64,000 bases of DNA from NCBI GenBank assembly GCA_003218375.1, contig QHNH01000009.1, positions 62,001 to 126,000 on the forward strand. Reading direction: 5' to 3'. Origin of the DNA: Verrucomicrobiota bacterium. GTDB lineage: Bacteria > Verrucomicrobiota > Verrucomicrobiia > Chthoniobacterales > UBA10450. Positions 11,564-23,996 of this stretch are shown here, piece by piece (the stretch's first letter is position 1; each line of letters opens with the position of its first letter). Made by a program: the position numbers and the translations under genes. Below the pieces are notes generated by a model. That model was not told the origin of the DNA, did no database searches, and saw nothing but the letters and a program-made list of their open reading frames with translations.

Positions 11564-14500
11564 CTATTTCAGGTTGTAAATCTCGACGAGCGCAATGCCG
11601 ATACCGCCGTTCTTGCCGGCGACGATGGCGGTGAATTGTCCCGGCGGCGCCAGCGACGTGAAGATGCCGGATTCCTTCGGATCGGGCAGGGCCAGTCCGT
11701 TGGCGGTGAGTTGAGCCGCCGCGGTCGGGTCGCTCTGCCAATCGTCGTTCGAGATCATGATGGTGCCATTCGCGTTGTGCAACTCGAGGGTCGGATCGGC
11801 CAGCACGTTGCTCAGGCCGATGCCGGATAACGACGGACCGAGAGCGCGCACCGCGATCCGAGTCGGGAGATTGTTTCCCCCGAGAACAAACCCGCCGATC
11901 ATCACTTCGTTGCCGGTCCGGACAAAACCGCGGGTGCTGATGTTCGCCAAAGCGGAATCGACCGCCTGGTTGTTATCATAGACTTCAACCAGACCGATGC
12001 CGGTTGTTTGGCCGACGCCCTTCAGAATGACGGTGTAGGCCGCGGGCGGCAAGGTCGCCAGGATCACAGATTCGCGATCGTCCGTCGGCTGGAAGACCGT
12101 GCCCTCGATCTGCGCCTTCTGCGGACTGTCTTTCCAGTTGTCATTTGAGGTAATCAAGGCGCCGCTCGCTCCATGCAATTCCAGGACCGGATCGTTCAGG
12201 ACCGACGCGGCCGGCAGTCCAGCATTGACCAGCGAAGGCCCGATGCCGCGGAGCACAACCGGCTTGGCGACGTTACCGGTAATGATGAAGCCGCCGATCA
12301 TCACCTTATCGCCGACATCGACGCGCAACCGGGTCGAGATGTTCAAGGCTTGGGCGGGCGTGACGGTAGGTGTAGCTGTCGCCGTAGCCGTCGGCGTGGC
12401 GGTTGCTGTAGGTGTAGCGGTGGCCGTAGCTGTAGCCGTCGGCGTAGCGGTGGCGGTGGCCGTTGCTGTGGCCGTAGGTGTAGCGGTTGGCGTGGCCGTT
12501 GCCGTCGGAGTCGGCGACGGCGTTGTTCCGATAACAGTCAAGGTAAAGCTCTGGTTCACTGTCGCCGTTACGCCATTGTTGGCGCCGATCGTAAACGGCC
12601 AGGTGCCGCCGGTAAGTGGCCCGGGTATGCCGGACAAAGTCGCGGTGCCATTGTTGTTATTCACGAAGGTCACCCCTGCCGGGAGATTGCCAGTGCGCGT
12701 GATCGACATGCTCGAGTTAGTCGGGAACCCGGTGGTCGTGACCGTGAACGTGCCAGGCGAGCCTTCGGTGAAGGTCGTGTGGTCCGCGCTCGTAAACGCC
12801 GGGCCCTGCAACACCGTCAGGGTAAAGCTCTGGGTCGCGTCCGGCGAGATGCCGTTGCTGGCCTTGATCGTGATCGGATAAGTCCCGCCCGTGTTCGCGT
12901 TCGGTGTTCCAGACAAGGTCGCAGTGCCGTTGTTGTTGTTCACGAAGGTTACTGTCCCGGGCAACGCACCCGTTTCCGTAATAACCATGCTCGCGTTCGT
13001 CGGGAATCCCGTCGTGGTAATGGTGAACGTGCCGGCCGTGGCAACCTTGAAGGTCGCGTTGTTCGCGCTGGTGATGGCGGGCGGCTGGCCTACTGTGATG
13101 TTCGCCGTGCCGGTAATGGTGTTAGTCACCGTATCGGTCGCGGTAATGCTCTGGTTGCCGCCCGTGACCAGCGTCGCGCTAAAGGTGTGGGCGCCGTTGT
13201 CCCCGGCCAGGAAGGTGTAGTCCCCTGGCACGGCCGAGCCCGCGCCGGCGTCGGACTTGGTGAAGTGCACCGTCCCACCATAACTGGTGGCGGTGTTATT
13301 GAACTGATCCAGCGCCATGACCGTGAAGTTGAAAGCGTTATTGGGCAGCACGGAGGCCGGCGCTACCAGACCCAGGTGCGTCGCGTTACCGGCACTGACA
13401 TTGATGTTGGCGCTCGTCCCATTGATGCCAGCATTGACCGAGTCCGTCGCCGTGATCGTCTGGTTCCCCACCGTCTTTAACGTCGCGCTCAAGGTCTTAG
13501 TTCCATTATCACCAGCCAGGAACTGGTAGTTCACCGGCAACGCGGCCTGGGCATCGGTGCTCGTGAACTTGGCCGTGCCCAGGTAGCCAGTCGCGACGTT
13601 ATTAGCCGCGTCGAGCGCCGTTACAACAAAGTTAAACGCATTGCCCGCTGTCGCGCTCGCCGGTGCGCTCACTGAGAAATGCGTCGCCGCGCCCGGGGAG
13701 ACCGAGATGTTGCCGCTCGTGCCGCTGATGGCGTTGTTATTGACGTCGGTAGCCGTGAGCGTCTGCGTGCCCGCGGTATTAAGCGTGGCGCTAAACATGA
13801 ACGAACCGGCGTCGCCGGCATTAAAGGTGTGATCACCCGGCAGACTGGCCGCGCCGTCGGTGCTGGTAATGTGCACCTGTGCCGCAAAATTGACGTCGAC
13901 GTTGTTAAACTGATCCAGAGCCGTAACCGTAAAGCCGAAAGAGCTGCCGGACGTCGCACTCGCGGGAGCGACGACCGACAGATGCGTCGCGGTCGCCGCA
14001 CTAACATTGACGTCAGCGTGGCCGTTGATGGTATTAGTGACTGTGTCGGTCGCGGTGACCGTCTGCGTGCCCGACGTCACAAAGGTCACGCCATTCGTGA
14101 AGGTGTGCACGCCGGCATCGGCGAGGGTAAAGGTGTAATCCCCCGGAACGGACGAGCCTGCGCCTGCGTCGGTCTTGGTGAAGTGGACTGTGCCGGTGTA
14201 GTTTGTGTCGGTGTTACCCGCGGTGTCGAGCGCTGTCACCGTGATGGTGAACGGTGAGCCCGCGGTAGCGTTCGCCGGCGCCGTGACCGTGAAGTGCGTT
14301 GCCGGGCCCGCGGTATTAGTCAGCGAGAAATCAGCCGGACCATTATATCCAGTCGCGGTCGCGGTAACCGTATAAGGACCGCCCACGGTGTTACTCGCGG
14401 TAGCATTGATCGTGGCTATGCCGCTCGCATTCGTGGTCGCTGGGTTAGTTCCAGACAGGGTGGCGGTGGGTTCGCTGGCCGGAGCCGTGAAGGTAACGGA

Positions 14501-17500
14501 AACACCGCTGATAAAAGTAACTCCGGACTCAGATACGGTCGCCTGGAGCGGGTTAGCGAAAGCCATTCCGACTATGGTGCTTTGCGGCGTTCCCGCCGTC
14601 GCTGCGATCATGTAGTTCGCCTCAACCGCGCCGATGTCCACTGTAGTATTCACTACGCGCGGGAAACCTGGGCCGCGCTGATCCACCGGCAGTGGCTCGG
14701 CGACGTTTGCATCGTTATCCAAATCGAAGGTGTCCGCGGGCAAGAGCGCGTTACTGCCGTTGTTGATCGCGAGGCCGCCAAGCACAGGCAGATGCGTCTG
14801 AGTCGGACCTCCGTTATTCCCCAGCGTCGTGTTGATTACGGTGCTGGTATCGAGCGTGCCCGTGCCCGCATTGCCGACGATATTGCCGTGGGCTGGGTCA
14901 GTGCTCTTGTCAGTGAGCCCGCCGGCAGTCGCCGAGTCGCCAACTAAGTTGAACGAGCTGGAAGAATTGACTGCGCCTTGGATGTCGTCTGCAGTCGTGC
15001 CTGTGCCGACGAAGTTACCGGCAACGATCGTGTTATTAAGGGTGACCGGCGCTCCACTGGGATTAGAATAGAGACCGCCGGCAGTGCCGCCGTTGTCATC
15101 CGAGTCGGCGCGATTTTGCGTAATGGTGACGTTGGTCAGCGTGGCGTTGCCGCCAAAATAGTTGTAAATCCCGCCCCCATCGGTCTTGCACGTGTTACCG
15201 CTCACCGTGCTGTTAACCATCTCCAGGGTGCCGCCTTCGTTGATAATACCGCCGGTGTGCTGGTCCGCCGAATTGCCACTGATCGTGCTGTCAAGAATCG
15301 TGAGCGTCGCGCCAGACCTGTTGTATATCCCGCCGATAGCGTTGGTAGCGTGATTACTAGAAATGCTGCTGCCGCGGATCGTTAGGGTGCGATTATCAGC
15401 ATTGAAAATAGCACCGCCGTAATCAGCCGTATTCCCGGTGATACTACAGAAGTTCAGCGTGAGCGTACCGTCGCTGGCGATACCACCGCCGTCATCCCCA
15501 ACTACTTTGCCATTAGCGATGGTCAGTCCAGAGATGGTCACCGTCTTTGCAGCCTGGACCTCGAACACACGGCTCGCGTTATTACCGCTGACGGTGATTA
15601 CCGAAGCGCCCGGCCCGGTGATCGTGACGTTCTTATCAACCAACAGCTCGCCAGTTGTCAGCGTGATTGTTCCGGTAAGTGCAGCTTGGAAGTTAATTGT
15701 CGCGCCGTCACAGACGTCGAGCAACGCCTGGCGCAGCGAACCGGCGCCGCTGTCGTTCAGGTTGGTGACCGTGGCCGGATTAGCGCAGGCGAGGACGGTC
15801 TGCGAAACCGTGTTGGAAGTGGAACCAAGGTAATTCGCGTCGCCGTTGTAGGTGGCGGTGATCGAATGCGGTGAGCCGGCTACGGTCAATGTTGAAGTCG
15901 TGCAGGTTGCCACGCCGCTGCTCAACGGCTGGATGCTCGTGCTGCCTTCGTCGCACGTAATCGGCGTCGCCCCATCGAAAAAGGTCGCCGTTCCCGTAGG
16001 TGTCCCGGGAGGCGCCCCCACCGGGCTAACTGTCGCGGTAAAAGTAACTGCGAATCCGTTGGAGGAAGGATTCTGCGATGAGATCAGGTTCGTGCTTGTG
16101 GCCTGCTTGATAACGACCGTGTAGGCCTGTGAACCGGTAGCTCCCACGGTGTCAGTCGCGGTGACGGTGAAGTTATAGGATCCCGGTGTGTTCGGCGTGC
16201 CTGAGATCACCCCGCTGTTGGCGTCCAAGGTCAGCGGCGGCGGCAAGGTTCCGGTAAAGCTGAAGGTCTTCGTCCCCGTGCCGCCACTGGCCGTCTCAGT
16301 CTGGCTATAGGGAGTGCCGACCTGGCCGGCCGGCAATGTCGCTGGACCCACTATGATCGCAGCGTTAATCACGATCTGGTAAGCCTTCGACGTGTTAGCT
16401 CCGAGACTATCGGTTGCCTTGATCGTAAAGTTGAAGGTGTTCGCCACCGTCGGCGTCCCGCTGATTTCGCCCGTGCCGGCATTGAGACTCAGGCCGTTCG
16501 GTAGGCTGCCGACACTCACGGAGTAGGCGATGGCGCCGGTTCCGCCCGTGGTCACGATCGTTTGACTGTAACCCGGGAAATCCTTGGTCCAGGCGGCCAG
16601 CGGACTGTTTGTAGTGAAGGCTATTGCGTCCGCTACCGTGATCGTGAACGCCGTGGTGTCGAAGGTCCCCGCCGTATTCGTGGCCCGGACCATAAGTCCC
16701 GAGAATGTTCCAGCCGTCGTTGGATTGGCGGCAGCCAATGCGCCCGCCGAGCTTAGCGAGAAGCCACCGGGTAGTGCATTACCGACAGACGTATAAGTGG
16801 GCGCCGGGAACCCATTCGCGATAAAGTTATAGCCGGCATAAGCGAAGCCCACCGTTGCCTTGTCCGGCGGCGTCTGGGCACTGAACAACGTCGGCGGAAT
16901 GTGCACTGGCACACTGGTGGCGTTGGTGTTCACCGTGCTGAAGTTGCTGCCGGAAATATTTGCAGTGTTAGTGATGTTCCCGCCGCCAAAGCCGGCGTTG
17001 ACCGTCGCATCGAATTTCATCGTCACGGTGGTGCCGGGATTCAACGTGCCGATGGTTACGGGTAACCCGAGGAAGTGGCTTCCGGTGACACTGCCCGGGA
17101 TAGCACCTTTCGCCTGACCCTTGGACGGCAGACGCCGCTCGCCCTTGGTCAGGAAGCCATACATCAGGCTGTCGCGATCCTTCTCCGCGTAGGAATCCGG
17201 CAGCCCGATCGCATGGCCCATCTCGTGCAGGATGGTCGTGAGTAGGTCGAGATGACCGGCCGGCGCGCCCGCCGGATCGGTGTAGCGGCGGGTGGCGGAG
17301 GTTTCCTTCGCAAAGAGCGATTCGCCCTGGCCGCCGCCATCAATGAACCAACCGTTGCCCCCGGCATTGTTATCAACCCGAATGCGATAACCGTCCGCTT
17401 CGCCCAGATAAATACTCGGCAGGTCGGCGACTTCAAATTTCAACTTCTGGAGCGCGGCAGACTGCTCGGTCGTTAGACCCGTGGCTTCCCAGCGCGCTCG

Positions 17501-20500
17501 CGCCGCAGCGACCACCTGATCCAGTTGACCTTGGGAAACCGCGCCTCGATCCTGAGCTGGAGCTGCCATTTCGGCGACCGCCGCAGGAGCGATAACCGGC
17601 GCGACGACCTTTGCCGCCACTGCGGCGGTTGTTGAATTACTGCCTGCCTTCGCCTTCGGGGAAACCGGGTTCTGTCGTTCGATTCCGCCTGGCGCGAGCA
17701 TCAAGGGCGGCAGGGTGCAATTGACGTTGGTGTAGTTAACGACCGTGCCGGCGCCAGCGGTGACGATCTTGCCCGCAACGGCATCTGTGCTGGCCACGTA
17801 GCTCTCGACGTTTGCGGAGTTCGTCCCGCTGCCGGTTAAGCCCTGGATGTTGAAGGTCGTGTTGGTGTACTGCTCGAGGAAGTAGTCGGCAAATTTTGAC
17901 GCGTTATCTGCGTGAATGTTGTTCTTCGTTACCGTCGAGAAGTTAACGCAGGTGTGGTTAGTCTCACCGCCAGTATTGTTACCTGCGAAGAACCACGTCC
18001 CGGCACTCTTCGCCGTCTGAACAGTGTTACCCTTAATCGTCAACTGCGCCGAGCCACTTCCCGCACGAGCGCCGCCGCGAATGCCATAGTCGAACGCTGT
18101 GGTTGTATTGATGCCGCTACCGGTTCCCTGGATTGTGTTGTTCTCAACATTCGCGATGATCGAACCGTTGCCTTCCTCCACGATATTGATGCCTTGGCCC
18201 GGGTTGTTCGTGATGTTGGTAGCGAGCGTGTTTCCCTTGATGGTTCCCGTCAACGACGCCGTCCCGGTCACCGCGATGTTGATCCCGACGCCCTGCCGAG
18301 CCGTGGCGACGTTATTCTCCAAGTCGAACGTTCCAGCACCAGTCGTAGACGAGATATTGATCGCCGACTGTCCAACACCCCCTCCGGTCGTGCTGGTAAA
18401 AGTGCATCCAGTAATAGTTGCGTCGAAACGCGCCGAAGCGCCGCTCACGTCAACCTGGATACCGTCCGAAGTGTGCGCTCCGGCGTACTCACCGTTGATT
18501 TTTGAATCAAAGGTTGCGCCGTTAACTACGACTTGGAAGTTAGCCGCGACAGAGTTGAAGATGGAGATATGATCGCCGATCACATTTTTGCCGCTATTGG
18601 CAAAGGTGCATCCGTTCTGAATTGTCAGCTTGTCCTTCTCGCTCCCCGCGGCGTTCGTCCCCGAAGCGTTAATGATCGAGACGTTGAACTGGGCGGTGTC
18701 GCTGATATCCACGTTATCCCAGACGCTGTCCTGGCTCGCCGAAGCGAGACCTTTCAGGTGAAACAGATAGATGCCCGACTCCCACACCGCATCGCCGGTA
18801 TTGCTAATGCTGACATTGGTCAGATCCAGATTGGTAACATTGTTTCCATTGATGCCGTGCTGCACGGTGGTGCCGAGGATGATGATGTTACTCAGGTTTA
18901 CATTGACGGCTGCGGACAGGTTTATCGCTCCATTCTCGTCAGTATTCTCGTTGCCGCCGACCGTGCCGTTGGATACCGCACCGTTGGCGTTGTTGGCATT
19001 CAAGAACCTCATCAATGTGAGGTTCACGTTCCGCGCGCCGATAAAGCTCGCCCCTCGAGCGTTAGTGCCCTGAATCGTGCCGCCAGTGCACGTCGGAGTT
19101 GCTACCGTGCAAGAGCCTCCGTTGCCTGTCACCGTCAGGCCGCCGCTCGATCCGGTCGTGTCGAGAATAATGCCGTTTGCGGGTAGCGTGTTATTACCGG
19201 TTACCGAAATGCTGCGGAAGGTCAGGCCGCTTGAGCCGATGGTGGTGTTAGCAACATTGAGTGCCGTGCCTGTCGTCGTAGTGATGGTATTGACCACTGC
19301 GCTGCCCCCAGCGCAATCGTTCGTCGCGCAAACGTTGACGACTCCGCCGTTGGTCGCGGTGAACGCGGGATTTGTCGTGGTCGTCAGGCTCAATCCACCC
19401 CGGAAGGTAATCGTCGCGGTACTGCTCAGGTCGTTATTATCGAGGAAAATGCCGGTGCCGCCGGCAGTCTCGGTGATCGCGGCGGGGAAGGTCACCGACC
19501 CGCCCGTCATGTTCGTCACGTTGACTGAGTGGCCGGCATTGTTCGTGATCGCGCTGGCAATAAAGATTGTCGCATTTCCGCCGCTCACGAGCACATCATC
19601 GCCCGAGACGCCGCTGATCGTGCCGCTGCCGTTGATCGTGAAGGTGCCGGCAACGTTGACAAGCTGAATGCCGATCCCGGTGAAGCTGCTCGTGCCGGCG
19701 CTGTCGATCGTCACGCTGAGCGTGCCGCCGGAATCAGCGCGGAACAGTCCGCCGGTTCCGTTCATCGTTACGTTCGAAATCGTTAACGTCCCGACTGTCG
19801 CAGTCGTGGTATTGGCAATTTTATAGTTGGTCGTGTTTCCGATGGTGAATCCGGTGACCGTGTTGCCGCTCGCCAAGGTGATTGCGTTTGTGGTTCCGCC
19901 GGTTGTAACAAAAGTCGTATTCGTCCCGGCGGTATTAATTACGATCGTGTTGACCGTGAGATTGGCGCCGCTGCCGTAAAGCAATTGGTTGTTCAACAGA
20001 GTCAGGCCGCCGTCGTAGGAAGCGACGGTGTTCTTCACAAAAATGATGTCGCCCGCGGCGTCCGGACCGGTGGCGCCGGAGATATCCGCCAGAGAATTAA
20101 AAGGCCTTGTATTGGAGCCATCTTCGGCGCCATTCGCGCCGGCGTAGGTGCCGTCCACATACCAGACCCGCGCGCCCAGTATGATGCTCACCAGGCCCGT
20201 GCTCGGCAGGCTGTCGGTATCGGTGACCGTATAGCTAAAGGTGTCGGTCAGGTTCTGGTCGCCGGTTTGCGGAGTGTAGGTAAAGGAACCATTGCTGTTG
20301 ATCGTTACGCTGCCGCCCGCGCTGGTCGCGAAAGTGCCGGTCGTAAGAACGAGACTGGCGTCCGGGGTGACGCCATCGATGTCGTGAACGCCGTTCAACA
20401 CCCCGGCGGCCGCGTTGACCACCAACTGGGTGTTGCCCGCCGCGTTGTAGCTATGCGCGATCGCGTTCGGCGAAACTTTGGCCGAGTTACCCACGAAGGT

Positions 20501-20917
20501 AGAATTGGGGTCGACCGTATCCGCGACCTGCACACCGGTCGCATCGCCAGCCGCGGCTGCACTGTTTACCACCGAGATCGTGTAGGTGATCGTGTCGCCC
20601 GGGCGGGCCGAGCTGTCGTTGTTCGGCGGGAAGGCAGCCGACTTCGTGCCCGTCACTCCGACCGGCGCAGCGGTTGCCAACGAAGGCAGGGCGACCATGC
20701 CGGCGAAGGCGAGCGCCAGCGCAAAGGCGCACCGGCGCGCCGGAACATAGGCATTCCTGCCTGTGCGCCCAGCGGACATTTTGTCTGCTGCGTTTGTTAC
20801 AGCGGAGTTTAACTCCGCTGGGCGCACAGACTGAAAGTCTATGTTCCGAATGGTGGCAGCGAGCCTCCAGAAGCGGACGGTCATTCGATCAAGCAGGGAG
20901 GGAAGGTGAGTTTTCAA
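11564..20917 (-). CDS. Giant multidomain surface protein: beta-helices, metzincin-like protease motif, Ig repeats
   Basis: 3117 codons. The frame opens at a TTG (20917); ATGs at codons 12 and 47 are alternatives. The signal peptide core is at residues 64-83 (FALALAFAGMVALPSLATAA). Then follow a DUF11/cadherin-like region (~85-245), a long right-handed beta-helix (~250-1070), a metzincin-type motif HEMGHAIGLPD (H1231, E1232, H1235, D1241) with a Met-turn-like SLMYG, three putative-Ig modules (~1346-1600), a Big_3-like domain, a second beta-helix of CSLREA/choice-of-anchor type (~1709-2100), four tandem ~100-aa Ig-like repeats (~2202-2607), two further Ig modules, a Pro/Thr/Ala linker (~2797-2852) and a duplicated ~130-aa C-terminal domain. 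It is likely a cell-surface or secreted adhesin/scaffold. The N-terminal 24-59 region is encoded by an interspersed repeat. Confidence 0.85.
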   Translation of the reverse strand: MKTHLPSLLDRMTVRFWRLAATIRNIDFQSVRPAELNSAVTNAADKMSAGRTGRNAYVPARRCAFALALAFAGMVALPSLATAAPVGVTGTKSAAFPPNNDSSARPGDTITYTISVVNSAAAAGDATGVQVADTVDPNSTFVGNSAKVSPNAIAHSYNAAGNTQLVVNAAAGVLNGVHDIDGVTPDASLVLTTGTFATSAGGSVTINSNGSFTYTPQTGDQNLTDTFSYTVTDTDSLPSTGLVSIILGARVWYVDGTYAGANGAEDGSNTRPFNSLADISGATGPDAAGDIIFVKNTVASYDGGLTLLNNQLLYGSGANLTVNTIVINTAGTNTTFVTTGGTTNAITLASGNTVTGFTIGNTTNYKIANTTTATVGTLTISNVTMNGTGGLFRADSGGTLSVTIDSAGTSSFTGIGIQLVNVAGTFTINGSGTISGVSGDDVLVSGGNATIFIASAITNNAGHSVNVTNMTGGSVTFPAAITETAGGTGIFLDNNDLSSTATITFRGGLSLTTTTNPAFTATNGGVVNVCATNDCAGGSAVVNTITTTTGTALNVANTTIGSSGLTFRSISVTGNNTLPANGIILDTTGSSGGLTVTGNGGSCTVATPTCTGGTIQGTNARGASFIGARNVNLTLMRFLNANNANGAVSNGTVGGNENTDENGAINLSAAVNVNLSNIIILGTTVQHGINGNNVTNLDLTNVSISNTGDAVWESGIYLFHLKGLASASQDSVWDNVDISDTAQFNVSIINASGTNAAGSEKDKLTIQNGCTFANSGKNVIGDHISIFNSVAANFQVVVNGATFDSKINGEYAGAHTSDGIQVDVSGASARFDATITGCTFTSTTGGGVGQSAINISSTTGAGTFDLENNVATARQGVGINIAVTGTASLTGTIKGNTLATNITNNPGQGINIVEEGNGSIIANVENNTIQGTGSGINTTTAFDYGIRGGARAGSGSAQLTIKGNTVQTAKSAGTWFFAGNNTGGETNHTCVNFSTVTKNNIHADNASKFADYFLEQYTNTTFNIQGLTGSGTNSANVESYVASTDAVAGKIVTAGAGTVVNYTNVNCTLPPLMLAPGGIERQNPVSPKAKAGSNSTTAAVAAKVVAPVIAPAAVAEMAAPAQDRGAVSQGQLDQVVAAARARWEATGLTTEQSAALQKLKFEVADLPSIYLGEADGYRIRVDNNAGGNGWFIDGGGQGESLFAKETSATRRYTDPAGAPAGHLDLLTTILHEMGHAIGLPDSYAEKDRDSLMYGFLTKGERRLPSKGQAKGAIPGSVTGSHFLGLPVTIGTLNPGTTVTMKFDATVNAGFGGGNITNTANISGSNFSTVNTNATSVPVHIPPTLFSAQTPPDKATVGFAYAGYNFIANGFPAPTYTSVGNALPGGFSLSSAGALAAANPTTAGTFSGLMVRATNTAGTFDTTAFTITVADAIAFTTNSPLAAWTKDFPGYSQTIVTTGGTGAIAYSVSVGSLPNGLSLNAGTGEISGTPTVANTFNFTIKATDSLGANTSKAYQIVINAAIIVGPATLPAGQVGTPYSQTETASGGTGTKTFSFTGTLPPPLTLDANSGVISGTPNTPGSYNFTVTATDTVGATGSQAYTVVIKQATSTNLISSQNPSSNGFAVTFTATVSPVGAPPGTPTGTATFFDGATPITCDEGSTSIQPLSSGVATCTTSTLTVAGSPHSITATYNGDANYLGSTSNTVSQTVLACANPATVTNLNDSGAGSLRQALLDVCDGATINFQAALTGTITLTTGELLVDKNVTITGPGASVITVSGNNASRVFEVQAAKTVTISGLTIANGKVVGDDGGGIASDGTLTLNFCSITGNTADYGGAIFNADNRTLTIRGSSISSNHATNAIGGIYNRSGATLTILDSTISGNSADQHTGGIINEGGTLEMVNSTVSGNTCKTDGGGIYNYFGGNATLTNVTITQNRADSDDNGGTAGGLYSNPSGAPVTLNNTIVAGNFVGTGTTADDIQGAVNSSSSFNLVGDSATAGGLTDKSTDPAHGNIVGNAGTGTLDTSTVINTTLGNNGGPTQTHLPVLGGLAINNGSNALLPADTFDLDNDANVAEPLPVDQRGPGFPRVVNTTVDIGAVEANYMIAATAGTPQSTIVGMAFANPLQATVSESGVTFISGVSVTFTAPASEPTATLSGTNPATTNASGIATINATASNTVGGPYTVTATATGYNGPADFSLTNTAGPATHFTVTAPANATAGSPFTITVTALDTAGNTDTNYTGTVHFTKTDAGAGSSVPGDYTFTLADAGVHTFTNGVTFVTSGTQTVTATDTVTNTINGHADVNVSAATATHLSVVAPASATSGSSFGFTVTALDQFNNVDVNFAAQVHITSTDGAASLPGDHTFNAGDAGSFMFSATLNTAGTQTLTATDVNNNAISGTSGNISVSPGAATHFSVSAPASATAGNAFNFVVTALDAANNVATGYLGTAKFTSTDAQAALPVNYQFLAGDNGTKTLSATLKTVGNQTITATDSVNAGINGTSANINVSAGNATHLGLVAPASVLPNNAFNFTVMALDQFNNTATSYGGTVHFTKSDAGAGSAVPGDYTFLAGDNGAHTFSATLVTGGNQSITATDTVTNTITGTANITVGQPPAITSANNATFKVATAGTFTITTTGFPTNASMVITETGALPGTVTFVNNNNGTATLSGTPNANTGGTYPITIKASNGISPDATQSFTLTVLQGPAFTSADHTTFTEGSPGTFTVTTTGFPTNSSMSITRTGNLPAGVTFVNNNNGTATLSGIPGPLTGGTWPFTIGANNGVTATVNQSFTLTVIGTTPSPTPTATATPTATPTATATATATATPTATATATATPTATATPTATATATPTVTPAQALNISTRLRVDVGDKVMIGGFIITGNVAKPVVLRGIGPSLVNAGLPAASVLNDPVLELHGASGALITSNDNWKDSPQKAQIEGTVFQPTDDRESVILATLPPAAYTVILKGVGQTTGIGLVEVYDNNQAVDSALANISTRGFVRTGNEVMIGGFVLGGNNLPTRIAVRALGPSLSGIGLSNVLADPTLELHNANGTIMISNDDWQSDPTAAAQLTANGLALPDPKESGIFTSLAPPGQFTAIVAGKNGGIGIALVEIYNLK
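12362..12522. repeat. Hexamer-type microsatellite encoding a Pro/Thr/Ala linker
   Basis: Degenerate 6- and 12-base units of the form GTNGCN/GTAGGN repeat for about 160 bases and encode an alternating T-A-T-P stretch in the giant surface protein. Such tracts act as flexible stalks between the Ig region and the C-terminal domain and are prone to length change. Confidence 0.75.
13095..14310 (-). repeat. Four tandem ~300-bp units encoding Ig-like modules
   Basis: Within the giant gene, four consecutive modules start with an ATHF/L-type motif (GPATHFTVTAPANATAG, TATHLSVVAPASATSG, AATHFSVSAPASATAG, NATHLGLVAPASVLPN). They share the later signatures VTALD, GDYTF or GDHTF, and TVTATD or TLTATD. Unit length is near 100 codons. 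The DNA copies are similar enough to allow recombination. Confidence 0.8.
20741..20848. repeat. Palindromic interspersed repeat lying in frame at the 5' end of the giant gene
   Basis: A 108-bp element bounded by CGGAACATAG and CTATGTTCCG. Both arms carry CTGTGCGCCCAGCGGA, in inverted orientation, around a nested hairpin AGCGGAGTT/AACTCCGCT. Smaller hairpins (AGGCA/TGCCT and GACT/AGTC) lie in each arm. The length is exactly 36 codons. On the minus strand it reads NIDFQSVRPAELNSAVTN and onward, a phrase I recall from many mis-annotated small ORFs in Verrucomicrobiota, consistent with a dispersed REP/MITE-like family. Confidence 0.75.
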
Positions 20918-21015
20918 GGGGATGTGAAATCAGCAGTTTAAGGACCGGTCGGCGTAGTTTTTAAAGGGAAAGCGGAAACGTGTCCAGATTATTGTTGAAG
21001 TTGCTACGAAATATT

Positions 21016-22023
21016 TCAGGCCTGCGGTTTCAGTTCCGGCGATTGGAAAGCCGTTTCAATCTTCGACGCGCTATCGAACGCTTCCCGCCAGTGGACATCT
21101 TCCAGCAGCGCCGCGTCGATCCAGCCGCGCGTGTCCTTCTTCACCTGCTTGCCCAGCACCACGTAAAGCCAGACCGCGCCGTCCGAATACGATTGGCCGA
21201 AAATCTCCCGAACCCGGTCGAATTCCCCGATTGCCTGCTTCGCCGTCAGGCCGAGCGCCCCTTTGATCGCGCTCGAAATCAGCGGCGTCGCGACCGCGCT
21301 TTTCACGTCATCAGTTCCCGCCAGGGCCGCGAACGCCGGCAGGCCGCGCACAAAGGCGGCCGCGATCGGATACGCCGCTTTCGAAGTCGCCGTCGATTTC
21401 ACCAGCTGCGCCTTCCATTTCACAAAATCTTCGCCTTCCGGCAGCGCCGCCGCCCGCGCGTCTCCCGTTCCGCGCATCGCGACCGCCAGCGCCTCCGGCG
21501 TTTTCGCCGGACGATTCACCAGCTTCAGCTCGCCGGCGCTCACGGCTGCGAGCGGATCGTCGATCTGCTTCGCGATCGGATCGTAGCTGAGCGCATCGTG
21601 CGCGAAGAAGACATTGTCCTTGCTGCTCAACTGCGCGAGCCGCCTCGCGAAATCGCCCGCGGAAAGATTCTCGATCACATGCCCGCTGCCCTGCGCCACG
21701 AACGAAACCGAATTCTCCTTGGCGTAAAACTTCTTGAACGGCGCGCGCAGGAGCGCGTCCGCCGCCTTCATGAAATCGGTCACCTGCACGAGCGCGTGAA
21801 TGCCGGAGCCGCTCTCCGGCCGGAGATGCCCGAGGACGGAAGCGCCGGTCAGCCTAACGACCGAGCTGTAGGTCGAGACGAAATCGAGGAGATGCAGCTC
21901 CGTCGCGTCGAACGAAAGAACGCCGGGCGTTTTCTCGAACGCAAAAAGCGAGCGGGGACGGAGGAGGCCGCCGCACACCAGCAACGATCCGACACGAAGA
22001 AAAGAGCGGCGGTCGGAGATCAT
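21016..22023 (-). CDS. Exported hypothetical protein with Tat-like signal
   Basis: 335 residues. The N-terminus MISDRRSFLRVGSLLVCGG has the twin-arginine pattern RRSFLR before a hydrophobic stretch, suggesting Tat export after folding. The mature part is largely alpha-helical with no cysteine pair or metal motif I can identify; it contains EGEDFVKWKAQLVKSTAT and a helical C-terminus. No named family is recognised. The interval between this gene and the giant surface protein is only about 100 bases, so they could be co-transcribed, this gene being downstream of the repeat region on its right. Confidence 0.65.
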   Translation of the reverse strand: MISDRRSFLRVGSLLVCGGLLRPRSLFAFEKTPGVLSFDATELHLLDFVSTYSSVVRLTGASVLGHLRPESGSGIHALVQVTDFMKAADALLRAPFKKFYAKENSVSFVAQGSGHVIENLSAGDFARRLAQLSSKDNVFFAHDALSYDPIAKQIDDPLAAVSAGELKLVNRPAKTPEALAVAMRGTGDARAAALPEGEDFVKWKAQLVKSTATSKAAYPIAAAFVRGLPAFAALAGTDDVKSAVATPLISSAIKGALGLTAKQAIGEFDRVREIFGQSYSDGAVWLYVVLGKQVKKDTRGWIDAALLEDVHWREAFDSASKIETAFQSPELKPQA

Positions 22024-23387: not shown

Positions 23388-23505
23388 GGTGGATCGAGCG
23401 CTCCGCCGCTCGATGGCAATTAAATGCCGGCAAGGCCGGGAAACAACAGGCATCGCGCGTCGGAGCGCGCGATCCACCTAAACGCTCGCGCGCTCGATCC
23501 ACCAC
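23388..23505. repeat. REP/BIME-like element on the 3' side of the RAYT gene
   Basis: A 91-bp unit starts GGTGGATC and ends GATCCACC (23388-23478). It contains hairpins ATCGAGCG/CGCTCGAT (23393-23414) and ATCGCGCG/CGCGCGAT (23452-23473) around a GC-rich centre. A further partial unit, CGCTCGATCCACC on this strand, runs to about 23505 and forms the last codons of the transposase. It is the same family as 23943-24031. Confidence 0.8.
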
Positions 23506-23996
23506 GGCCAGTTCTCAGCTTTCGCGCACAGACCAGCCACGACCGGATTTTGCCGAATGTAATTGATCTTGGCCGAGAGCTGTTCGCCGCGCTCATCGTC
23601 TCGCAATCGATGGTCGAAATACCCCTCCTGCCAGATGATTCCGTGCCTGTGCGATTGGAAATGCTTCCATCCGCCAATGGCTCGGCTCATGGATTCATCC
23701 CTTTGGAACGACAGCAGCGCGCGGAGATGATCGGGCATCAAGAGGAATGCCGTGGTGTACCAGCGATACTCTGATTCATAATACTTCGCCGAGTCCAGCA
23801 ATGACTCGGCAATCGATGGCGTGGTCAGCGCTGCTTGTTGCTTCTTGCGATCAATCGCGATGCGGATGTGAAAGAGAGCGCCAGGTTCCACCCAATCGGG
23901 CACGCCATGGTAAAGTTTGGCTGGAAATCCGCGGTAGAGAATGGTGGATCTAGCGCTCCGACGCTCGATGTTTGTTCGACGCGGCTTTGCCGCCAT
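23478..23996 (-). CDS. REP-associated tyrosine transposase (RAYT, Y1_Tnp family)
   Basis: 172 residues. RAYTs are single-strand HUH endonucleases related to IS200/IS605 TnpA and are linked to spread of REP palindromes. Visible family features: the opening GVPDWVEPGALFHIRIAI, AFLLMPDHLRALLSF at the HUH position, the GWKHFQSHRHGIIWQEGYFDHRLR segment and the catalytic-tyrosine helix KINYIRQNPVVAGL, then ENWPWW. The HUH motif reads D-H-L-R, so the second histidine is arginine (codon CGC) and activity is doubtful. The ATG (23996) and the final codons lie within flanking REP sequences. An internal GTG at the GVPDW motif is an alternative start. Confidence 0.82.
   Translation of the reverse strand: MAAKPRRTNIERRSARSTILYRGFPAKLYHGVPDWVEPGALFHIRIAIDRKKQQAALTTPSIAESLLDSAKYYESEYRWYTTAFLLMPDHLRALLSFQRDESMSRAIGGWKHFQSHRHGIIWQEGYFDHRLRDDERGEQLSAKINYIRQNPVVAGLCAKAENWPWWIERASV

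Follow-up and report, generated by a model that had tools for sequence, protein, structure and literature searches.

A 108-nt palindromic repeat, here termed element A, has been inserted into the n-region of the signal peptide of a giant exported protein. It makes up 36 in-frame codons, i.e. codons 24-59 of a 3117-codon open reading frame on the minus strand of the window (the whole 64,000-nt stretch of DNA that was analysed). Taken together, the results described below make it probable that a RAYT (REP-associated tyrosine transposase; REP, repetitive extragenic palindrome) moved this solo copy into the n-region, and that in-frame inserts of element A and of RAYTs are tolerated at permissive sites of coding genes.

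Element A is a multicopy palindrome with a conserved four-hairpin fold

The host genome (G000) comprises 3.96 Mb in 52 contigs and is 97.8% complete. It contains 40 scored copies of element A with identities of 78-100%. A covariance model search, in which 150 first-look candidates were scored and the result of which may be exceeded by the true number, recognised at least 79 distinct places, one of them a 79-nt fragment and at least 78 of them near-full-length. An exact 20-mer of the element was also found in contigs of soil-type Verrucomicrobia MAGs, which makes a verrucomicrobial host very probable. The places in G000 mostly adjoin genes or fall between genes. The ends of the element are CGGAACATAG (read inward), where one phase has a TAG stop, and CTATGTTCCG (read outward), where one phase has an ATG. 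According to a heuristic gene call, the CATAG end supplies the TAG stop codon of the flanking gene in about 25 of the 79 places, a type of donation that has already been described for REP termini (PMC3733652). In some cases, this end stops two converging genes at once.

The two inverted repeats of the window copy, I1 and I2, are 87-88% complementary, and the predicted fold of the sense strand has an energy of -79.9 kcal/mol (z = -6.3). Thirty copies were aligned, and 97% of the cells are paired by a fold that consists of four local hairpins plus an inner and an outer stem. For this fold, 14 pairs have changed on both sides, a value that was reached by none of 500 shuffles, and slid controls gave values of 2-5. 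A single long hairpin with paired arms was rejected as the conserved fold, as it has only 3 double-sided changes compared to 14. The covariation indicates that the nucleic-acid fold of element A was selected, as expected if the element is handled as single-stranded hairpins. The idea that the element evolved to be specially free of stop codons was also discarded, because the difference between its open-frame fraction (0.38) and that of shuffles (0.31) is too small.

The modal length of element A is 107 nt. The window copy alone has an added base in mini-hairpin 4, i.e. GGAATGCC versus GGATGCC-type sequences at the other places (at least 79 in all), and this base makes it 108 nt long. The added base fits a repair of the reading frame after insertion, but it could also predate the insertion. 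No target duplication was recognised at the flanks of the window copy (CCACCATT / GCGCGCC), and the flanks of other copies were judged by eye. GTAG or CGTC end tags mark the REP super-families of Di Nocera 2013 (PMC3733652). By reading, GTAG, CTAC, CGTC and GACG were all found to be absent from the 108-bp sequence. Element A is thus RAYT-associated in a wide sense (TIRtron-like) and is neither a GTAG nor a CGTC REP. An Rfam scan of the window matched no family, and a search of viral contigs with the N-terminal protein sequence gave no match.

The earlier note on this DNA had described an in-frame palindromic repeat of 36 codons with inverted ends and nested hairpins at residues 24-59. Sequence, coordinates and frame proved to be as described, the nested hairpins number four and are backed by covariation among the copies, and the many further genomic copies show that the repeat is multicopy and far above chance. 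The features are compiled in Table 1.

Table 1. Features of the window and in-frame copies of element A elsewhere in G000
Feature	Position	Strand	Support or remark
Element A copy, 108-bp palindromic repeat	20741..20848	-	In frame in the giant gene
Outer stem, 5' side in gene sense (CGGAACATAG)	20839..20848	-	Inverted repeat and covariation
Outer stem, 3' side (CTATGTTCCG)	20741..20750	-	Inverted repeat and covariation
Mini-hairpin 1 (ACTTTCAGT)	20830..20838	-	Covariation at all three pairs
Hairpin 2 (CAGCGGAGTTAAACTCCGCTG)	20800..20820	-	Covariation
Hairpin 3 (CAGCAGACAAAATGTCCGCTG), with ATG47 inside	20770..20790	-	Covariation
Mini-hairpin 4 (GCAGGAATGC), extra base absent from all other aligned copies	20751..20760	-	Covariation and alignment
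Giant exported-protein gene, 3117 aa, TTG start	11564..20917	-	He_PIG, Big_3_5, Big_9, weak DUF11
TTG, codon 1	20915..20917	-	Conserved as TTGAAAA in G001, G003, G007
ATG, codon 12	20882..20884	-	Similar ATG in orthologue G005
ATG, codon 47, in frame within the repeat	20777..20779	-	Candidate start of the earlier note
Hydrophobic core of the signal peptide (FALALAFAGMVAL)	20687..20725	-	
Upstream non-coding block	20932..20990 (approximate limits)	-	Common to G001, G003, G007 (inspection)
335-aa gene upstream, synteny anchor	21016..22023	-
In-frame element A, NuoL	C52:101005
In-frame element A, aconitase (acnA)	C27:73859
In-frame element A, amidohydrolase	C3:90849
In-frame element A pair, CarB	C52:6037 and 6757

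Insertion into the n-region and choice of the start codon

With the 335-aa upstream gene as an anchor, five syntenic giant-gene loci were found in the genus, including that of the window. Two of them are empty sites. The n-region of G003 begins with TTG AAA ACT CAC C... and is devoid of the repeat, and G001 reads TTG AAA ATC AAA GCT CAA CTG ACC..., giving MKIKAQLTALALLGVMVMPSFAIAA. In the remaining two congeners, G005 and G007, the same interval is taken up by another palindromic repeat (element B, GGAGGGACGACC...CCCGTCCCTCC), likewise in frame. Element B is multicopy in G000, G001 and G005 and has few copies in G007. Thus, the residues encoded by element A do not recur in the orthologues, and the empty sites uphold the earlier view of a repeat residing in frame in the N-region of an exported protein. 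The joints of the insertion are not exactly readable because the n-regions have diverged. The element B in this interval of G005 holds further nested palindromes. A paralogue in G005 (C30) has a signal peptide and first mature residues (SGTKAAAFPPNNDSSAR) that closely resemble those of the window protein, which suggests exchange among paralogues. The non-coding block upstream of the giant gene is a possible promoter or leader.

Four of the five syntenic loci (G000, G001, G003, and G007) have the TTGAAAA start. In G001, no usable start other than this TTG exists. In G007, the stretch from the conserved TTG to the signal core is free of further in-frame ATG, GTG and TTG codons, so that the repeat of G007 must be translated, barring an unusual start. 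As the TTG upstream of the repeat is conserved, the repeat lengthens the n-region of the signal peptide. Judged from these sequence comparisons, TTG1 is most likely the ancestral start of the giant gene.

The earlier note had surmised that the repeat may supply the start codon. ATG47 within the element would then be the working start of the giant protein, and the upstream TTG frame would be leader RNA only. ATG is a stronger start codon than TTG, the n-region would have 18 residues with a net charge of +4 instead of the 64 residues counted from TTG1, and in other species long 5' REPs often fall outside the true ORF (PMC3733652). Yet these points have to be weighed against the retention of TTGAAAA in four of five orthologues, its role as the sole usable start in G001 and G007, and a frame that is open from TTG1 through the insert; moreover, ATG47 is buried in a strong predicted stem and lacks an obvious Shine-Dalgarno motif. 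ATG47 is therefore not favoured over TTG1, and its use as the working start is less likely than not. A role of ATG47 as a secondary or replacement start in G000 is possible, and donation of the start codon of the giant gene by element A is possible but less likely.

Solo copies of element A inside other genes

Five insertions of element A were found within coding sequences of G000, i.e. in the giant gene, nuoL, acnA, an amidohydrolase gene, and as a pair in carB. All five are in frame and have the same entry phase (RNI or RNM at the start); with a probability of one in three for each, the chance of this outcome is about 0.004. Congeners do not have such a repeat at the matching points of NuoL, aconitase and the amidohydrolase. 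No second close copy of the interrupted genes was found at high identity in G000, the assembly of which is 97.8% complete. The copy at C2:78260 is located in the n-region of a CrtC-domain protein and represents a second case like that of the giant gene. Four further N-terminal repeats (C25:61630, C1:39088, C19:34353, and C22:86093) were set aside, as each of them is followed by a normal start or signal and is thus probably located 5' of the true start.

These in-frame copies also bear on the view that element A is a 5' RNA control structure, i.e. a hairpin leader or attenuator that is kept for regulation, with an incidental coding frame. The strong fold, the covariation and the preference of the copies for gene ends would be compatible with such a function. 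However, the covariation is common to all copies wherever they are located, and thus reflects the element and not the giant gene. In addition, a hairpin is missing from two orthologues, the hairpin of two others is unrelated to element A, and the in-frame copies in NuoL and aconitase are no leaders. A regulatory leader is thus unlikely.

Complete RAYTs reside in frame inside housekeeping genes

The two element A copies in carB flank a complete RAYT with the motifs MPNHVHALV and YIARNPEKAGL. This REP-RAYT-REP unit is in frame with carB and forms a single open frame of 1347 aa with it. In the NCBIfam scan, carbamoyl-phosphate synthase is split into two stretches with REP_Tyr_transpos between them. 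The score of the carB RAYT against NF047646 is 65.3 bits (E 5.5e-18), under the cut-off of 80, and the metH RAYT of the same genome exceeds this cut-off with a score of 84.1. As in carB, metH and recG of G000 each contain a RAYT in frame. A Y1_Tnp gene in the window (23478-23996, minus strand; 23 bits, at the Pfam cut-off) was also considered as the source of the repeat. It is distant and standalone and has no adjoining copies of element A, and the carB RAYT is favoured.

A profile was built from 14 in-frame RAYTs and searched over 61 genomes of the family, some of which are near relatives. The genomes analysed are drafts, mostly metagenome-assembled, in up to several hundred contigs. The clade has 94 members, of which 79 are part of open frames of 436-1619 aa and 15 of frames of 156-260 aa. 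Y1 transposases with lower scores are nearly all encoded in short frames. The 79 long-frame RAYTs are all accounted for by ten recurrent sites, which are distributed over nine housekeeping genes, and the host frame is open in each case. The approximate numbers per site, some of which depend on assignments made by reading, are about 29 for recG, about 23 loci for carB, about 7 and about 5 for sites 1 and 2 of metH, 4 for alaS, 3 each for tsaC and mqnA, 2 for valS, and 1 each for thrS and clpB. The metH gene of G011 contains two RAYTs. For the 15 short-frame members, tblastn of the flanks found none of the nine host genes beside them; hence, no out-of-frame clade member was seen in these genes. 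Three RAYT hits have stop codons or gaps (G071:C190, G061:C270, and G061:C120). Phylum-wide, a close relative is present in 115 of 388 genomes, and about a third of the matches listed belong to frames with a length of 400 aa or more.

The occupancy is patchy, e.g. carB is occupied by a RAYT in two of the eight genomes of the genus. G005 and G007 have small solo in-frame hairpins in the carB linker where other species have a RAYT. One of these hairpins (CGGAACACAGACTGCAAGTCTGTGTTCC) resembles half of element A.

Residence in essential, conserved genes resembles that of inteins and self-splicing introns, and the inserts might accordingly be removed from the RNA or from the protein. However, an Rfam scan of 11 loci matched only tRNAs and revealed no group I intron ribozyme or other intron family, and NCBIfam and Pfam scans of the insert-bearing host frames found no self-splicing (Hint) or intein domain. 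Furthermore, RNA splicing needs no open frame, yet the frames are always kept, and the solo inserts of about 36 codons are shorter than known inteins. Splicing of either kind is thus very improbable.

Movement, selection and tolerance of the inserts

The distances between RAYTs are not correlated with those between the host genes (RecG, Mantel r 0.14 with a null maximum of 0.29; CarB, r -0.02). Between G000 and G005, for instance, 11% of the residues in the RecG flanks differ, compared to 49% in the RAYTs. The recG RAYT of G000 is nearest to one in another genus, from which it differs by 18%, and the respective RecG proteins differ by 29%. As the relationships of the RAYTs do not track those of the host genes, the elements move, and vertical inheritance together with the host gene is unsupported by the distances for RecG and CarB. 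On the RAYT tree, the site labels are clustered, with 19 changes versus 49.5 in shuffles, which shows that RAYT lineages are mostly faithful to one site.

Apart from G000, most of the genomes sampled from one other genus are also rich in element A, and the congeners of G000 have almost none. The carB RAYT of G000 and the mqnA RAYTs of G066, G074 and G078 group together in a supported clade, and all four genomes hold many copies of element A. In G066, this RAYT is flanked by two copies. A member of this clade was not detected in five genomes that are rich in element A (G010, G028, G034, G061, and G076). Mobilisation of element A by a carB-type RAYT is suggested by this co-occurrence, which is a correlation and not proof.

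The RAYTs inside genes are under purifying selection, with dN/dS values of 0.06-0.17 where dS is measurable. The CarB insertion site corresponds to a loop in the region of residues 470-487 of the E. coli protein, the RecG site is a short stretch before the VVIGTHAL motif (RecG entry 1gm5), and the NuoL site falls in a stretch of variable length in the solved NuoL. Survival without special splicing would be explained by permissive sites, by the elimination of out-of-frame insertions from essential genes, and by the discarding of the signal peptide. The draft state of the genomes and the few RAYTs with stops or gaps might suggest that the interrupted genes are in decay or products of misassembly, and in frame by accident. 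This is hardly credible in view of the open host frame in 79 of 79 long-frame RAYTs from many genomes and at ten sites, the purifying selection on the RAYTs, and the lack of any other close copies of these essential genes in a genome that is 97.8% complete.

Comparison with known systems

REP/RAYT systems (TnpA-REP; REPtrons, TIRtrons) have been described (Di Nocera 2013, PMC3733652; Nunvar 2010, PMC2817692; Quentin 2018, PMC6006769), and REPs inside ORFs are known, including examples in Opitutus terrae of the Verrucomicrobia (PMC3733652). Like REPtrons, the present system has short, dispersed, multicopy palindromes that are mostly found at gene ends, donate TAG codons and are in some cases located inside ORFs, and palindromes flank a Y1/HUH transposase gene with the HUH and catalytic Tyr motifs. 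Unlike REPs, element A is about 107 bp long, folds into four hairpins and lacks a GTAG or CGTC tag, and, unlike the REPtrons in the literature that was searched, whole REP-RAYT-REP units are in frame in housekeeping genes at recurrent sites.

Rickettsia palindromic elements (RPE) are found in frame in protein genes, including N-termini, and proteins with RPE-1 were reported to be expressed (cited in PMC3733652). Element A resembles them in its in-frame residence in the giant gene, NuoL, AcnA and the amidohydrolase. The likeness is one of behaviour; the phylum is different, and the present system has its own transposase, which is itself in frame in genes. With inteins, the RAYTs share the in-frame location in conserved essential genes, common sites across lineages, patchy occupancy and discordant trees; in contrast to inteins, the enzyme is a HUH single-strand transposase, and insertion is at permissive loops and not at active-site motifs. 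IStrons (IS200/IS605 with a group I intron) also place a Y1 transposase element into genes without evident loss of the host gene, but here Rfam indicates no intron and the reading frame is kept. Like MITEs, element A is small and has inverted termini, a high copy number and no gene of its own; however, no target duplication was recognised, and the fold with several hairpins and the link to a RAYT point to the REP type.

A model for in-frame residence and its implications

We propose that a REP-like, palindromic mobile element gave rise to the repeat of the window, which would be a solo and non-autonomous copy. The parent unit is probably the carB REP-RAYT-REP of the same genome. Based on the known biology of RAYTs and IS200/IS605, element A would have moved as hairpin-forming single-stranded DNA that was cut and joined by the RAYT. 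One copy would have entered the giant gene downstream of the ancestral TTG start and ahead of the sequence for the signal-peptide core, and it would have become or stayed in frame, possibly aided by the one-base gain that is unique to this copy. It may be tolerated as its sole effect would be a longer n-region, which would be cleaved off as part of the signal peptide. Elsewhere, copies of element A and whole RAYTs would persist in frame at length-variable loops and linkers of coding genes, where the frame, the sites and the lack of a second close copy are observed, and the inserts would form additional loops or domains of the translated host proteins. One RAYT clade may have taken in-gene residence as its main habitat in the family.

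With somewhat less assurance, we lean towards a more general view, in which this RAYT clade has an intein-like life. REP-RAYT-REP units in essential genes (recG, carB, metH, aminoacyl-tRNA synthetases, and others) would be translated together with the host protein, be maintained by purifying selection and reach identical sites when they move from genome to genome, and solo palindromes would seed in-frame peptides throughout the proteome.

In-frame palindromes as such are already known from RPE and from REPs in ORFs. In the literature that was searched, which did not include most of the subscription literature, we found no description of RAYTs that reside in frame in housekeeping genes, and their novelty is thus provisional. 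One survey dropped unexpectedly long Y1 proteins as fusions or annotation errors (PMC6006769), and therefore in-frame RAYTs may have been overlooked.

The giant gene is a clear example of coding sequence that derives from a repeat, in this case at the N-terminal end of an exported protein, and some of its orthologues have empty sites. Residence in indispensable genes is otherwise credited to inteins and self-splicing introns. The results suggest that some REP/RAYT elements may persist hidden in frame in genes that the host cannot lose. It can now be tested how a transposase enters essential genes without death of the host, whether RAYTs home to their sites, and how mobile palindromes give rise to new protein loops and domains.
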